64,000 bases of DNA from a virus: positions 1-64,000 of IMG/VR virus record IMGVR_UViG_3300025929_000015; one strand, 5' to 3'. The notes under the pieces were generated by a model. That model was not told the origin of the DNA. It saw nothing but the letters and a program-made list of their open reading frames with translations, and made no database searches. Below, in pieces: positions 40,425 to 62,722 of the stretch (within the stretch, counting starts at the first letter, position 1; every line of letters starts with the position of its first letter). Position numbers and translations under genes: made by a program.

Positions 40425-40598
40425 TCACCGACGGGGCGGGCGGGCTTTCTCCTGGAACTCGACCCGGTCGACGCGACGCTGGGGGGCGGGCGACAGCCAG
40501 GTCTGCATCGCCACTTCCAGGTCGACCCACTCGCCCTTGACCCCGTCGTCGTAGACGAACCGGACCTCGATCCGGCTGGCGGGCAGGCTCATGGCCAT
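40425..40598 (-). CDS. Small hypothetical protein
   Basis: 57 residues; ATG 40598 overlaps the stop of the GH5 gene (TGATG). Sequence ASRIEVRFVYDDGVKGEWVD, then EVAMQTWLSPAPQRR. No family recognised. Its coupling to GH5 suggests co-expression. Confidence 0.5.
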   Translation of the reverse strand: MAMSLPASRIEVRFVYDDGVKGEWVDLEVAMQTWLSPAPQRRVDRVEFQEKARPPRR

Positions 40599-41710
40599 CA
40601 GATGATGTCCTGGAGCAGCGCGATCATCTCGGCGTTGGTGCCTTTCCAGTCCTGGCCGCACATCAGCCCGAATCCTTCCCGGTTCCCGTCCGGGGCCTTG
40701 AGCACGCCGGTGCCGGGCTCGGTGCCGCGGACCGTCTGGGCGGACAGCGACCACCAGCACCAGCTGACCCCGCGGGCGCCGGCCCAGGCCAGGAAGTTCG
40801 CCATCCAGCCGCTGGTCATCGCCGCGCGGCTGGCCAGGTCCTGGCCGAACTCCCCGACCCAGACCGGCGCGGTCCCGGACAGCCGCAGGTAGCCGCCCTG
40901 GCGGTCCATCTGGTCGAAGTAGGCGGACGTCGCCTGCCCGCCCGGGTGGAACCAGGAGTAGTCGTGCAGGGACGCGACCACCCCGGGACCGGTGACCGGG
41001 TGCGCGGCCCAGCCGGTCAGGTCGGTGGCGTAGGACAGGCCCTCGCAGAACACCAGGCAGCCGGGGGCGGTGAACCGGATCCGGTCGGCGGTGGCCTGGT
41101 ACATCCGCCGGAAGTCGGTGGCGGGGTTGCCGTCTCCCCAGGTCGGGTGCACGGTGACCCCGCCGATCACCGCGCTGCGCGGCTCGTTGCGCAGGTCGTA
41201 GCCGACCCGCGGGTTGGCGCCGAACGCGGCGGCGACCGTGTCCCAGCAGGCGGTGAACACCGCGGCGGGCCAGTTGTCGTTATGCCACAAGCCGTTGACG
41301 TCGGCGTCGCTGCAGCACCAGCCCGGGTAGGACAGGTGGTTGTTGACGATGACGTACAGCCCGGCGGCGGTCATGTCGGCGACCAGCGCCTGCATCAGCT
41401 GCCACGGGGTCAGCCCGGCCAGGTCGGGGTTGGCCGCGACGCGGGCCAGCGGGACCGGGCTGGTGAACGGGGTGCCGTCGCGGTTGAGCAGGGTGCCGGT
41501 GGCGAACGGGAACCGGACGTGATTCATCCCCCAGCTCACGATCCGGCCGATGATCTCACTGCGCGGCAGCTTGTCCAGGCCCGCGGCGACACGGTTGTCC
41601 TGGTGCGCGCCGGGCCAGTTCACTCCGCACAGCCGGTACGGCTGCCCGTCGGCGCCGGTGATGGCGGCGCCGGAGACGGCCAGCGGGAACGCGCTCGCGG
41701 GGATGATCAT
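40598..41710 (-). CDS. Glycoside hydrolase family 5 (cellulase-like)
   Basis: 370 residues from ATG 41710, preceded by GGAGGAG. The TIM-barrel signature of GH5 is present: RLCGVNWPGAHQDN, WGMNHVRFPF, GLYVIVNNHLSYPGW, VGYDLRNEPRS (acid/base Glu176) and VWVGEFGQD (nucleophile Glu287), ending SWCWWSLSAQ. There is no signal peptide, so export would need a holin, lysis or packaging in the virion. Predicted substrate beta-1,4-glucan or related glycan. Confidence 0.8.
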   Translation of the reverse strand: MIIPASAFPLAVSGAAITGADGQPYRLCGVNWPGAHQDNRVAAGLDKLPRSEIIGRIVSWGMNHVRFPFATGTLLNRDGTPFTSPVPLARVAANPDLAGLTPWQLMQALVADMTAAGLYVIVNNHLSYPGWCCSDADVNGLWHNDNWPAAVFTACWDTVAAAFGANPRVGYDLRNEPRSAVIGGVTVHPTWGDGNPATDFRRMYQATADRIRFTAPGCLVFCEGLSYATDLTGWAAHPVTGPGVVASLHDYSWFHPGGQATSAYFDQMDRQGGYLRLSGTAPVWVGEFGQDLASRAAMTSGWMANFLAWAGARGVSWCWWSLSAQTVRGTEPGTGVLKAPDGNREGFGLMCGQDWKGTNAEMIALLQDII

Positions 41711-49863: not shown

Positions 49864-49938
49864 CGCGGGGTCGCCTAGCTCGGTATGGCATTGGGCTCAT
49901 AACCCAAAATAACGCGGGTTCGAATCCCGCCCCCGCTT
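49864..49938 (+). tRNA. tRNA with CAT anticodon (tRNA-Met type)
   Basis: Cloverleaf visible: acceptor GCGGGG/CCCCGC (6 pairs, end position C-T unpaired), D arm GCC..GGC, anticodon arm TTGGG-CTCATAA-CCCAA, and T arm GCGGG-TTCGAAT-CCCGC. The CCA end is not encoded. The mismatched first pair is reminiscent of initiator tRNAs, but GGG/CCC anticodon-stem pairs are not present in the initiator position order with certainty, so initiator, elongator or lysidine-modified Ile2 remains open. Confidence 0.85.
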
Positions 49939-49940
49939 CT

Positions 49941-57892: not shown

Positions 57893-58465
57893 ATGAATGT
57901 GGATGTCAGCCAGCTCCAGCCCGGCGTCTTCGGCGTCTCGCATGGCGGCGGCCTGGCCGGAGAGCTTATCCGCCACGCGACTGGCTCCTGGGCCGGGCAC
58001 GCGTTCCTCTACCTCGGCGGCGGGCGGCTGGTCCAGGGCCAGCCGCCCGCCGCCGCGCTCGCGCCCGCGGACAGCCACGGCGACGCGATCTGGGCCTGGC
58101 GGATGTGGGACCAGCTGCGCGCCGTGACCGGCTGGACCGCGGACCAGGTGACCGCCGCGCAGCGGCGGGTGGTGGCCCGCGGACACGCCCTGACCGGCTG
58201 CCGGTACGACTTCGAGGCGTACGCGGGCTTTTCCCTGGAAGTGCTCAAGCTAGTCAACGCCGGCCAGCTCGACCCGGTGTTCAGCAGCGACAGCTACCGG
58301 GTATGCAGCGCACTGGTGGACGACGCGGAGGTCTTCGGCGGGGTGCCGATGACCTACGTGCCCGCCGACGGGCCGGGCGTGGCCCCGGGCGGGGCGATGA
58401 TCGCCGCCAACCTGGTCGCGCCCGGCATGCTGCTCGGACTGGCCGAACGCAGTGAGTGGATCTAG
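57893..58465 (+). CDS. Permuted NlpC/P60 (YiiX-like) cysteine hydrolase
   Basis: 190 residues from ATG 57893. GELIRHATGSWAGHAFLYLG (His early), ALTGCRYDFEAYAGFSLEVL, then SDSYRVCSALVDDAEVFG (Cys late) is the circularly permuted NlpC/P60 order, His before Cys. Likely acts on peptide or lipid-linked wall substrates. Its TAG overlaps the opposing TAG as CTAG. The upstream gap has a palindromic GTATAC near 57878 that could serve both directions. Confidence 0.65.
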   Translation: MNVDVSQLQPGVFGVSHGGGLAGELIRHATGSWAGHAFLYLGGGRLVQGQPPAAALAPADSHGDAIWAWRMWDQLRAVTGWTADQVTAAQRRVVARGHALTGCRYDFEAYAGFSLEVLKLVNAGQLDPVFSSDSYRVCSALVDDAEVFGGVPMTYVPADGPGVAPGGAMIAANLVAPGMLLGLAERSEWI

Positions 58466-59354: not shown

Positions 59355-59381
59355 ACGCCCGGACCCCAGGGGTCCGGGCGT
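59355..59381 (-). terminator. Hairpin terminator after the GH16 gene
   Basis: A 12-base-pair stem (ACGCCCGGACCC with its complement) has a 3-base loop. On the minus strand it is followed by TGTTCTGCTT, moderately T-rich. It sits 19 bases after the GH16 stop, so the GT2-GH16 operon probably ends here. Confidence 0.7.
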
Positions 59382-59399: not shown

Positions 59400-60506
59400 C
59401 TACGGCTGGGTGTAGCTGAACGCAGGCAGCGGCACGGCCACTGCCGGGTCCCCGGGCGGTGGCGCCCCGTTGGGGCACCACAGGTTGACGATCACCTGCT
59501 GCTTGCCGGTGGCGGGGACGGCGACCGTGCCGCTGAACTGGTTCCCGCCGTACAGCTGGGTGTAGCTGTACTTCTGCCCCTGGACGGCGGTCACCTCGGC
59601 CAGCACGGTCCCGTCCGCGGCGGACAGCCGCCATCGCAGGGAGCCGGGCAGCCAGGTGAACTCGGCGGTCAGGCTGCCATGCCCCGCCGGGATGGCGAAC
59701 TGGCTGCCCGGTACCAGCACGTGCCCGGGCGGGGTGCCCTGCACCGAGCTGAGCTGGTCGGCGTAGTAGCCGAACTGGACGAACGCCGGGGCGCCGGCGA
59801 TAGTCCCGGCCGAGTAGAACTCGATGTCGATTTCCTTCTGCCCGCCGGGGCCGCCCTTGCTGGCTGCCCAGTAGGTGAACAGTCCCAGGCACAGCCCGGG
59901 CGGCAGTGCGGTCAGGTCGGCGCCGATGCTCCACCGGTAGGTGCCGTACCCCCAGGTCGAGGCGTTCGCCGCGATCCCCTGGTCACCCCGGGCGGAGTCC
60001 GCCTCCGCCCCGGCATACAAGCCGGGTGACAGCTGCGCGGCGTGCAGCGTCAGGACCTGACCCAGCGCGTCCACGGTCACGTTGGCCGCCTTAGGCTGGC
60101 CGGGCGCGGTGCCCCAGTCCTCCAGCTCCCACAGGTGATTGCCCCAGGACACCGCGTTCCCCGCCTGGGAGGCAGGCGGCTCGGCCCCGCCGTAGCCGGA
60201 GACGATGGCCTTGCCGGCTGACGGGGCGGCCCCGGCCAGCAGCGCGGTGCCGTTGGCGTTGGACTGCAGCGCGTACGACCCGCCCTGGTCATCGGTCAGC
60301 GCCACCACCGCGGCCGGGGTCCCGGACGGGGTCACCGTGTAGCTGGTGGTCGCGGTGGCGATCTCCCCGGTCGCCGGGTCCTGCGCGGTCCCGGTCAGGT
60401 TGACAGTGAACACCGCCGCCCGGTCCGCGTAGTTCGCCGTCACCTTCACCGCCTCCCCCGGGGCGTAATTCGTCTTGTCGGTGGACAGGGACAGGCTCAG
60501 GGTCAT
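59400..60506 (-). CDS. GH16-family beta-glucanase with N-terminal Ig-like domain
   Basis: 368 residues from ATG 60506 (GGAGG upstream; ATGA overlap with the gene before). The N-terminal 85 residues are Ig-like (TDKTNYAPGEAVKVTANYAD). The GH16 jelly-roll follows: WELEDWGTAP, YGTYRWSIGADLTALPPG and GQKEIDIEFYSAG with the catalytic ExDxE (E225, D227, E229), ending YSYTQLYGGNQFSG. GH16 enzymes cut beta-1,3/1,4-glucans or galactans. There is no signal peptide, so location is open. It is operonic with a processive GT2. Confidence 0.75.
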   Translation of the reverse strand: MTLSLSLSTDKTNYAPGEAVKVTANYADRAAVFTVNLTGTAQDPATGEIATATTSYTVTPSGTPAAVVALTDDQGGSYALQSNANGTALLAGAAPSAGKAIVSGYGGAEPPASQAGNAVSWGNHLWELEDWGTAPGQPKAANVTVDALGQVLTLHAAQLSPGLYAGAEADSARGDQGIAANASTWGYGTYRWSIGADLTALPPGLCLGLFTYWAASKGGPGGQKEIDIEFYSAGTIAGAPAFVQFGYYADQLSSVQGTPPGHVLVPGSQFAIPAGHGSLTAEFTWLPGSLRWRLSAADGTVLAEVTAVQGQKYSYTQLYGGNQFSGTVAVPATGKQQVIVNLWCPNGAPPPGDPAVAVPLPAFSYTQP

Positions 60507-60649
60507 GGTCGACGCCTCCTTCGCGGGGTCAGCCGGACCCGGGGCCGCAGCCGGGTGGCCGCAAGTACCGCGTAGACCAGGGTCACCCCGCTGATCACGT
60601 ACGTGCCCAGGAAATGGTACATGGGCATGTACCAGCCGTAATTCTGCAT
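60503..60649 (-). CDS. 48-residue single-span membrane protein
   Basis: ATG 60649 with GGGGGAAA upstream. MYHFLGTYVISGVTLVYAVL is the membrane helix, and the tail is strongly basic (RLRPRVRLTPRRRRRP). It lies between the GT2 and GH16 genes with overlaps, suggesting an accessory subunit of the glycan machinery. Inference only. Confidence 0.6.
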   Translation of the reverse strand: MQNYGWYMPMYHFLGTYVISGVTLVYAVLAATRLRPRVRLTPRRRRRP

Positions 60650-60666
60650 GATATTTCCCCCTCGGG

Positions 60667-61785
60667 TCAGATGGACGTACCGGCACCCCAGCTGGAGCTG
60701 CGCTTGCGCAGCATCCGGTACAGCGCGCGGATGTAAACGAACTGGCGGGCGACCGAGTAGAACAGGTCGGGGACGATCAGCAGCGTCGCCACGATGGCGA
60801 CGATCCCGGCCTTGCGCGCCTGCCAGGTCTGCTCGATGATGATGAACAGCAGGCACAGCGCGTACAGCTTCGCGTTCAGCGGGTTGATGCCCTGCCAGCC
60901 GAACAGCGCGAACGACCAGGACAGGTAGAACGCGGTCAGCGGCAGCGCCAGCATCCCCAGGTAGGTGGCGGACTGCCGGACGATCATCCCGCGCGTCTCG
61001 TGCCCCCACCCGTACCGGACCAGCTCGGCCAGCGTGCCGTGCTGCCAGCGCAGCCGCTGGCTCACCCAGTCCCGGACGGTCTCCATCACGTCGGTCAGCA
61101 CCCGGCAATTCCCCGGCGCCAGCACCGGGATCCGCAGCCGTTTCAGCGCCAAGGTCAGCTCGTAGTCCTCGACCAGGCTGTGCACGTCGTACACCTGGCC
61201 GTCCGGGCGGGTCGCGGCCACCGCCCACAGCACGCACACCCGCATCCCCCACCCGGTGCCGGACAGCACGTCGGCCCGCGGGCGGCGGTTCTGGTGCTGG
61301 GCGAACCGGGCGAACTCGGCCCGCTGCAGCGCGCCGAGCAGGCCGCCGCCGGGGCGGCCGTGGAACGTCGCGCCGACGCTGCCGTAGCCTTTCTCCAGCC
61401 ACCGGATCGTGTTGGCGATGAAGTCGGGGTCCGGCACGGAGTCCGCGTCGAACCCCATCACGATGTCGGTGTCATCCAGCCGGGGCAAGATGTGCGCCAG
61501 CCCGATGTTCAGGTTGCCGGCCTTGCGGTGCGGGTTGACCGCCGTCTGGGTGATGCTCACCCCGTACGGCGCGACCTCGGCTGCGATCCGGTTGGCCAGC
61601 TCGCGGTCGGCTGTGTTGTCGAGCAGGACATACAGCTCGTCCGGGGGCCTGGTCTGGCCGAGCACCGCCTCCACGGTCCGGCTGATCGTCCCGGTCTCGT
61701 TGTGGGTGGGGATCACGACGACCACCCGGTCGGCCGGGTCGGTCAGCAGCGGACCGAAATCCCTTCCTCGTCTTGAATGGTTCAA
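60667..61785 (-). CDS. Processive GT2 glycosyltransferase (cellulose-synthase-like)
   Basis: 372 residues from TTG 61785 (AAAGGAG six bases upstream). GT-A motifs: VVVVIPTHNE, GFDADS (D113/D115), SGTGWGMR, LVEDYELT (E206/D207) and QRLRW (243-247), the D,D,D,QxxRW set of processive synthases. Hydrophobic helices follow (YLGMLALPLTAFYLSWSFAL, LYALCLLFIIIEQTW, AGIVAIVATLLIVPDLFYS). It would make and extrude a beta-linked polysaccharide. It lacks a PilZ domain. In a phage this is exceptional. Heads the GH16 operon. Confidence 0.8.
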   Translation of the reverse strand: MNHSRRGRDFGPLLTDPADRVVVVIPTHNETGTISRTVEAVLGQTRPPDELYVLLDNTADRELANRIAAEVAPYGVSITQTAVNPHRKAGNLNIGLAHILPRLDDTDIVMGFDADSVPDPDFIANTIRWLEKGYGSVGATFHGRPGGGLLGALQRAEFARFAQHQNRRPRADVLSGTGWGMRVCVLWAVAATRPDGQVYDVHSLVEDYELTLALKRLRIPVLAPGNCRVLTDVMETVRDWVSQRLRWQHGTLAELVRYGWGHETRGMIVRQSATYLGMLALPLTAFYLSWSFALFGWQGINPLNAKLYALCLLFIIIEQTWQARKAGIVAIVATLLIVPDLFYSVARQFVYIRALYRMLRKRSSSWGAGTSI

Positions 61786-61823
61786 AATTTCTCCTTTCGC
61801 AGCGGAACGTGGCCGTTCCCCGC

Positions 61824-61847
61824 GGCGCCCGCCCGCAAGCGGGCGCC
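61824..61847. terminator. GC hairpin upstream of the GT2 gene
   Basis: GGCGCCCGC and GCGGGCGCC are 9-base perfect arms with a 6-base loop in the 154-base gap between gene 61940 and the GT2 start. No T-run. It may end the upstream leftward transcript. The rest of the gap shows nothing clear. Confidence 0.45.
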
Positions 61848-61939
61848 ACGGCCAGCGGCCTCAACCCAGGTGTCACCAAAGCAGGAACACTATTTTTCCC
61901 CGCCTGCCCCGCGGGGGCCAGCCCTGACTTCGGTGACCT

Positions 61940-62722
61940 TTACGGCTGACCCGACGATTCCTCCTGCCCTTTCAGGTAGCGCAGCGCCCGGTGCTCATCC
62001 CAGCCGAACGTCTCGTGCAGCCCGGCGGCCAGCATCTCCTGGTATGCCGGGGCGGGCGCCAGCGGTTCGACGTCGGCCATCCGCCACGGCGCGCCGAACG
62101 TGACCACCGGGTGCCCGCGGAGCCTGCCCACGCAGCTGACGGTCTCGTAATGGCCGGGCCCGGCGGACAGCTGTGCCCCCGGGGTGAGCGGCAGGTCCCA
62201 GTCCGTCCCGGGGACCTGCTTCATCTCCTGGGCCATGATGTCACAGAGCTGTGCCGGGGCGATCAGCCAGGCCCGGGCCGCGGTGATGCCGGCTGCGTGA
62301 GGGTCATACAGGGCCCGGCCGCCGCCCCAGAACGCCGACCGGGTGGCGAAGTACATCCGGCCGGGCAGCCAGGCAGCCGTCGTGTCGACCGGATCGGCCG
62401 GGTCGCGGGCCCCGTGGTGGACCCGGCCGGTCTCGGCCAGCACACCGCCGTGCAGGTAGTACCGGAACCGGCGCCAGGTCATGTTCGACCCGTAGGCCGC
62501 ATACCAGACCAGGCTCGTGTCCTTTCCTGTTCCCATGGTTAACTCCTTTTCTCCGCTGCCGCGCTTGCGCCGTTTCTCGGCGGTATCAGCGCACCTGTCG
62601 CTGCAGAACCTGCTGCGCGCCAGCACTGCGAAATATGGCTTCCCGCAGCACTCGCATCTCTTCTCGATAAGTTTCTTACGGCGGGTATATGTCGCGCCTT
62701 TCTGAGGCCCGCGTTTTCCCAT
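61940..62722 (-). CDS. Gamma-glutamylcyclotransferase-like protein with N-terminal zinc ribbon
   Basis: 260 residues as one frame. Residues 1-60 are a basic zinc ribbon (KRCECCGKPYFAVLARSRFC, then SDRCADTAEKRRKR). From residue 63 a new ATG (62536) with AAAAGGAG begins VWYAAYGSNMTWRRFRYYLH, the BtrG/GGCT-like fold start, continuing GRALYDPHAAGITAARAWLI. No stop separates them, so either a fusion or two overlapping products. Enzymatic activity is not established for this phage family. Confidence 0.65.
   Translation of the reverse strand: MGKRGPQKGATYTRRKKLIEKRCECCGKPYFAVLARSRFCSDRCADTAEKRRKRGSGEKELTMGTGKDTSLVWYAAYGSNMTWRRFRYYLHGGVLAETGRVHHGARDPADPVDTTAAWLPGRMYFATRSAFWGGGRALYDPHAAGITAARAWLIAPAQLCDIMAQEMKQVPGTDWDLPLTPGAQLSAGPGHYETVSCVGRLRGHPVVTFGAPWRMADVEPLAPAPAYQEMLAAGLHETFGWDEHRALRYLKGQEESSGQP

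Follow-up and report, generated by a model that had tools for sequence, protein, structure and literature searches.

A phage operon combining a hyaluronan synthase-like GT2 glycosyltransferase, a small membrane protein and a GH16-type protein as a candidate surface-polysaccharide cassette

The locus described here raises the question of why a phage would carry, in one short run of genes, a glycosyltransferase that resembles polysaccharide synthases and a putative glycan hydrolase. It is part of the virus record IMGVR_UViG_3300025929_000015 (99,376 bp), of which bases 1-64000 were analysed as one stretch of 64,000 nucleotides, here called the window. The assignment of the virus as a tailed phage is supported by a protein of tape-measure length that matches a minor-tail PHROG.

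Gene order and boundaries of the operon

Three genes on the minus strand make up the locus. The first encodes a GT2 glycosyltransferase (60667-61785, 372 aa) and has a TTG start codon preceded by AAAGGAG. It is followed by a gene for a small basic single-helix protein (60503-60649, 48 aa, ATG start) and by a gene for a GH16-type protein (59400-60506, 368 aa, ATG start). The stop codon of the GT2 gene is separated from the ATG of the small gene by a gap of 17 nt, and the ATG of the GH16-type gene overlaps the stop of the small gene by 4 nt. Just 3' of the GH16-type stop codon, a terminator-like hairpin with 12 pairs and a weak T tail is located on the same strand (59355-59381); this stretch folds much more stably than shuffled sequences (z -7.1). 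The original prediction, which had described a GT2, a 48-residue basic membrane protein and a GH16 that are joined by short gaps or overlaps and end at a terminator, was thereby confirmed. From this layout, the three genes are predicted to be a single transcription unit.

The operon lies within a block of minus-strand genes, away from the plus-strand tail genes. Between the GT2 gene and the gene upstream of it (61940-62722) lies a leader (61786-61939, minus strand) that contains strong hairpins followed by the AAAGGAG ribosome-binding site, and no sigma-70-type promoter was found in this leader. The hairpins are long and GC-rich and stand immediately 5' of the ribosome-binding site; they may be regulatory. 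The arrangement is not due to chance, since the order of GT2 gene, small gene and a further gene is kept in two related phage contigs (L012 and L013).

Some further features were observed in the record. A lone plus-strand gene near the operon (57893-58465), which interrupts the minus-strand block, possibly encodes an NlpC/P60- or YiiX-like protein as judged by eye, with no Pfam match; an ORF resembling it is located after the cassette of a related phage (L020, 9089-9664). A single tRNA-Met (CAT) gene is present in the window (49864-49939, plus strand). The remaining part of the record encodes a Ku protein (85119-85907, L011:4120-4908, minus strand; PF02735, 5e-36) and a ParB-like protein (82979-83845, L011:1980-2846, minus strand; PHROG 6218, 1.4e-24).

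The GT2 enzyme and its small membrane partner

The GT2 protein consists of a cytoplasmic GT-A domain (residues ~20-258) and C-terminal membrane or interface helices (265-359). It carries no N-terminal transmembrane helix and the GT-A domain begins directly, whereas class I hyaluronan synthases have two N-terminal transmembrane helices. Matches above the cut-off were obtained for PF13641 (2.7e-19) and PF00535 (1.7e-17). All motifs of processive synthases are kept, namely D56/D60, DAD (113-115), ED (206-207) and QRLRW (243-247). In a 51-member alignment, DxD, ED and the Q, R and W of QxxRW are identical in 51/51 GT2 relatives.

To this comparison we added an AlphaFold (AF2) model of the GT2 protein (pLDDT 91, pTM 0.89), which was searched against the PDB with Foldseek. 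The top match was the viral (Chlorella virus) hyaluronan synthase 7sp7 (E 2e-13, TMq 0.69-0.71), followed by the archaeal mannosyltransferase PcManGT in second place and by BcsA, Xenopus XlHAS1 and yeast Chs1. The alignments to these top matches span ~400 columns and include the membrane helices. A closer similarity to dolichol-phosphate-type transferases, which the original prediction had named as grounds for its rejection, was not observed: viral HAS ranks first with cellulose synthase slightly below, and no DPMS/GtrB (dolichol-/undecaprenyl-phosphate-type) structure is among the top 50 PDB folds. Judged by its modelled structure, the GT2 is best filed in the HAS/BcsA/PgaC fold group and is assigned to no single product family. 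As a statement of membership, the label 'cellulose-synthase-like' did not hold, as the GT2 scores 30.8 bits with the CelA model, which has a cut-off of 699, slightly less than the highest NCBIfam score, which was obtained with the PgaC/IcaA model (42.7 bits, cut-off 422). The predicted beta-glucan product is not supported either; the product is not readable from the sequence, and cellulose is just one of several possible products. PF03721 (UDP-GlcA supply) is absent from the 99-kb record and no sugar-nucleotide gene was identified there, so the substrates must come from the host. Hyaluronan was also considered as a product in view of the annotated UDP-glucose dehydrogenase of Metamorphoovirus phages, but this was not used further since PF03721 matched neither those phages nor the record.

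Two bacterial systems share parts of this architecture. PgaC/IcaA and PgaD/IcaD combine a processive GT2 with a small membrane partner and one or more glycan-modifying enzymes, and the window operon has a candidate counterpart for each. However, the partner in the window has one helix and 48 aa, the GT2 scores far under the PgaC/IcaA equivalog cut-off, and in contrast to PNAG systems the operon has no deacetylase, although two related phages (L018 and L147) carry one. BcsA shares the fold and QxxRW with the GT2, and bcs operons include a hydrolase, BcsZ. On the other hand, no BcsB is present in the window operon, its hydrolase is of the GH16 and not of the GH8 type, and at 372 aa the GT2 is too short to carry a PilZ domain behind its helices.

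It is unlikely, although the idea deserves weight, that the GT2 is no polymerase and instead transfers a single sugar or very few to an acceptor, either a lipid or the wall, as a GT21-like glycolipid synthase or a receptor-masking transferase would, with the small protein serving as acceptor or chaperone. QxxRW is found in non-processive GT21-type enzymes too, and weak matches to GT21 (Pfam, E 0.0066) and to the GtrB-like O-antigen conversion family phrog_841 (E 1.5e-4) point in the same direction, as does PcManGT as the second-best fold. Against this, the best folds are polymer synthases that align through the membrane region, and an adjoining glycan hydrolase or deacetylase would be hard to explain without a polymer. 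By its likeness to these synthases, the GT2 would act processively and its product would be a polysaccharide.

The 48-aa protein has a short Tyr-rich N-terminus, one hydrophobic helix (hydropathy peak 1.86) and an RLRP...RRRRR tail, and its predicted topology is N-out/C-in. The basic RLRP tail and the position of the gene are common to the window and its two nearest phages, L012 and L013. In a wider set, a hydrophobic ORF of 35-100 aa was found directly 3' of the GT2 gene in 77/100 related loci, compared to 66/1736 long control ORFs from the same DNA. GT2 relatives with such a partner occur in six GenBank actinophages, in many metagenomic phages and in actinobacterial chromosomes. This recurrence argues that the GT2 and the small gene are an old unit and not an accident of one contig. 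The small protein was also considered as a mere stand-in for the N-terminal helices that the GT2 lacks, but this idea was abandoned, since chromosomal GT2s with hydrophobic N-terminal segments keep the partner too. The record of the Streptococcus satellite phage Javan622 (L008) ends with a full-length gene for a GT2 of this family, and no mini partner was found adjoining it.

In many relatives, the small protein consists entirely of a cell-wall sorting signal that begins with MY(N/G)... and continues with LAxTG, one helix and a basic end. Such genes of ~50 aa directly follow HAS-like GT2 genes in phages and in actinobacterial chromosomes (L002-L007, L014, L015, L142-L146, L149-L151, L157, L158, L164). 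The sortase motif L[AP]xTG was found in 27/100 GT2 loci compared to 9/1736 controls. LAXTG is used by Actinobacteria class E sortases (PMC5148588). Three low-GC phages (L157, L158 and L164) carry LPQTG instead, which is the class A form, so the motif seems to track the type of host; two higher-GC phages with LPxTG (L015 and L151) are exceptions. N-terminal Met-Tyr is common in these mini-sortase-type proteins, and Tyr2 could serve as a glycan acceptor. In the 48-aa protein of the window, the L[AP]xTG motif is absent, and sortase anchoring was rejected for this protein.

Presence of the sortase motif and presence of a hydrolase seem to alternate. The 'glycosyltransferases' of Microbacterium, Arthrobacter and Brevibacterium phages belong to the same GT2 family (28-36% identity) and have a small membrane gene directly 3'. 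Their small gene carries LAxTG and is followed by no hydrolase, whereas the window phage shows the reverse. Among the phages with a sortase-type partner (18 distinct ones), not one cassette contains a hydrolase or deacetylase that could be recognised (downstream genes were partly judged by eye), compared to 5/9 motif-less phages by family match or profile and 7/9 when beta-helix-like and deacetylase-like proteins are added. Fisher's test gives a post-hoc p of 0.0016 (4e-5 counting 7) for these related phages. Because the pattern was spotted in the same data, includes calls made by eye and comes from related phages, we treat it as a hypothesis.

The GH16-type protein and the recurrence of the cassette

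The GH16-type protein comprises an unassigned N-terminal region (~1-100) and a GH16 domain (~104-368), in which the catalytic motif ExDxE is present as EIDIEF at position 225 (E225-I-D227-I-E229). Searches with this protein gave no match in Pfam (none to PF00722 at E<=1), PHROG (structural families included), NCBIfam or PDB sequences, and nothing meaningful was matched when the profile of the GH16 domain was run against the PDB. Relatives were found in phage L012 (45% identity over the GH16 domain) and in a bacterium (L111). When a profile of these three members was compared with actinobacterial PF00722 proteins by hhalign, a match with a probability of 95.8, an E of 7.7e-9 and a score of 65.4 was obtained, in which the catalytic ExDxE is aligned. 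By comparison, the window protein on its own reached 51.6, and neither the reversed profile nor any of 100 column-shuffled versions exceeded 20.9. An AlphaFold model of the window protein that was built on a two-row alignment had a pLDDT of 41, and the Foldseek list from that model was disregarded. In its catalytic motif and profile match the protein is like GH16 enzymes (lichenase/XTH-like); it differs from typical members in lying under Pfam detection and in having no export signal, and its L012 relative in being fused to a virion domain.

Neither a signal peptide nor an N-terminal hydrophobic stretch is present in the window protein. In the L012 homologue (L012:6310-7641), the N-terminal part is a virion-structural domain (PHROG 3758, E 1.3e-16) to which the GH16 is fused, and this protein is likely a virion-borne GH16 depolymerase. 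In light of the missing export signal and of the virion domain of this relative, the window enzyme is more likely to act from the virion or after lysis than as a secreted trimming enzyme. A second hydrolase in the window, a GH5 cellulase-family protein (40598-41710, minus strand; PF00150, 5.8e-33), has both catalytic Glu motifs and is distant from the GT2; it has no signal peptide, and no comparable match was found in 24 other phages carrying a related GT2.

Single-sequence scans of viral contigs with the GT2 and the GH16-type protein gave no matches, and family alignments were required to find related cassettes. Phage L012 carries the same triad with a GT2 that is 59% identical to that of the window. 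In L013 (GT2 63% identical), a protein that looks beta-helix-like by eye and has no Pfam or PHROG match replaces the GH16. Behind the GT2 of L018, a small gene, a GH26 and a polysaccharide deacetylase (PF01522) are found; in L147, a short hydrophobic gene, a PF01522 deacetylase and a GH16; in L020, a deacetylase-like protein (motif only, no Pfam match) and a GH16. Across 28 phage records, PF01522 and PF00722 together gave four matches, and every one of them lies within a GT2 cassette. In a tree of 59 GT2 members, 4 changes of label are needed to account for the phages with a hydrolase, and well-supported branches force at least 2 of them. Hydrolases were thus probably recruited next to related phage GT2s more than once. 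The same tree nests some phage GT2s inside clades of chromosomal genes (L144 among those of Streptomyces, Tyrumbra and Count among those of Microbacterium and Herbiconiux), a pattern that points to more than one capture from hosts. In chromosomes, a GH16 near a related GT2 was seen in 2/50 loci, which is a weak signal.

These findings bear on a second alternative, in which the GH16 works as a conventional virion depolymerase on a beta-glycan of the host or the environment and is merely co-transcribed with a GT2 of separate function. The absence of a signal peptide, the virion domain of the L012 relative and the presence of a GH5 apart from the GT2 in the same phage are in line with this. We nevertheless regard it as rather improbable: different hydrolase families adjoin related GT2s in several separate phage lineages, and the gene order is kept between the window and L012, with GT2s that are 59% identical. 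The combination put forward in the original prediction, in which a synthase of processive type is accompanied by a hydrolase and a small membrane partner, is supported by the motifs, the fold, the conservation of the partner and the GH16 profile.

Proposed function and implications

We give a probability of about one half to a reading of the operon as a cassette by which the phage makes a surface polysaccharide and also supplies the depolymerase for it. The membrane-embedded GT2 would polymerise a host nucleotide sugar in the cytoplasm and extrude the chain via its own helices. The 48-aa protein would be a dedicated membrane partner, probably packed at the synthase channel like PgaD/IcaD or the anchor helix of BcsB. 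As the position of its gene suggests, the GH16 would cut the glycan made by the GT2. It would most likely do so from the virion or at or after lysis, and would thereby free the progeny from the coat or let them through. The coat would shield the infected cell against competing phages during infection.

Many temperate phages carry surface-modifying glycosyltransferases, and the operon might instead serve lysogenic conversion, with a prophage altering the biofilm or surface of its host. This role, also raised in the original prediction, found no support and is very improbable, because neither a tyrosine integrase nor a serine recombinase was found in the 99-kb record and because a lytic lifestyle is described for phages that carry related GT2s (PMC7302621, PMC12614000), among them the GT2-bearing Microbacterium cluster EC phages (PMC7302621).

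The surface-polysaccharide cassette is best filed as the phage form of virus-encoded polysaccharide synthesis that is already known from chloroviruses. These viruses encode HAS or chitin synthase and coat the infected cells, and many of them encode chitinases and chitosanases (PMC5408694). Like the window phage, many chloroviruses combine a virus-encoded GT2 (PBCV-1 A098R and relatives), which shares its fold with that of the window, with polymer-cutting enzymes (PMC5408694). However, chlorovirus genes are scattered in a virus of eukaryotic algae, whereas the phage genes form an operon. Chlorovirus HAS also has N-terminal membrane helices and no described small partner, the opposite of the window GT2 on both points, and the identity is ~15%. 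On coated algal cells, further virus attachment is inhibited, although the review doubts that exclusion is the purpose there (PMC5408694). By analogy, superinfection exclusion by a coat is plausible for the phage.

Taking the related loci together, we tentatively propose that Gram-positive phages may carry an unrecognised surface-glycan machine, made up of a HAS-like GT2 and a one-helix partner, in two branches. In a make-and-anchor branch, the MY..LAxTG/LPxTG..helix..KR partner could act as a primer or holder of the glycan and link it to the host wall by a covalent bond. In a make-and-cut branch, to which the window would belong, the sortase signal is absent and a phage hydrolase, here apparently of virion type, would remove the phage-made coat. 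If this is true, both branches solve one problem, which is to coat the infected cell and not to trap the progeny.

The surface polysaccharide of chloroviruses is well documented, but its purpose has not been settled, and according to a review reverse genetics was not available for those viruses (PMC5408694). The same review asks if a pilot protein guides the polysaccharide chain through the wall (PMC5408694). Relatives of the cassette are present in phage isolates of Microbacterium, Arthrobacter and Brevibacterium that are lytic, which makes the question of the coat testable by deletion of single genes. Additionally, soil viruses carry genes for GH16 enzymes and deacetylases that are usually labelled as carbon-degrading auxiliary genes (e.g. 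PMC6460857); in the phages described here these genes belong to a synthase operon, which changes that reading. The mini-sortase partner of the relatives suggests a new route for the attachment of a glycan to the wall. Our data suggest that some bacterial viruses may build a coat on the cells that they infect, anchor it and also take it off again.
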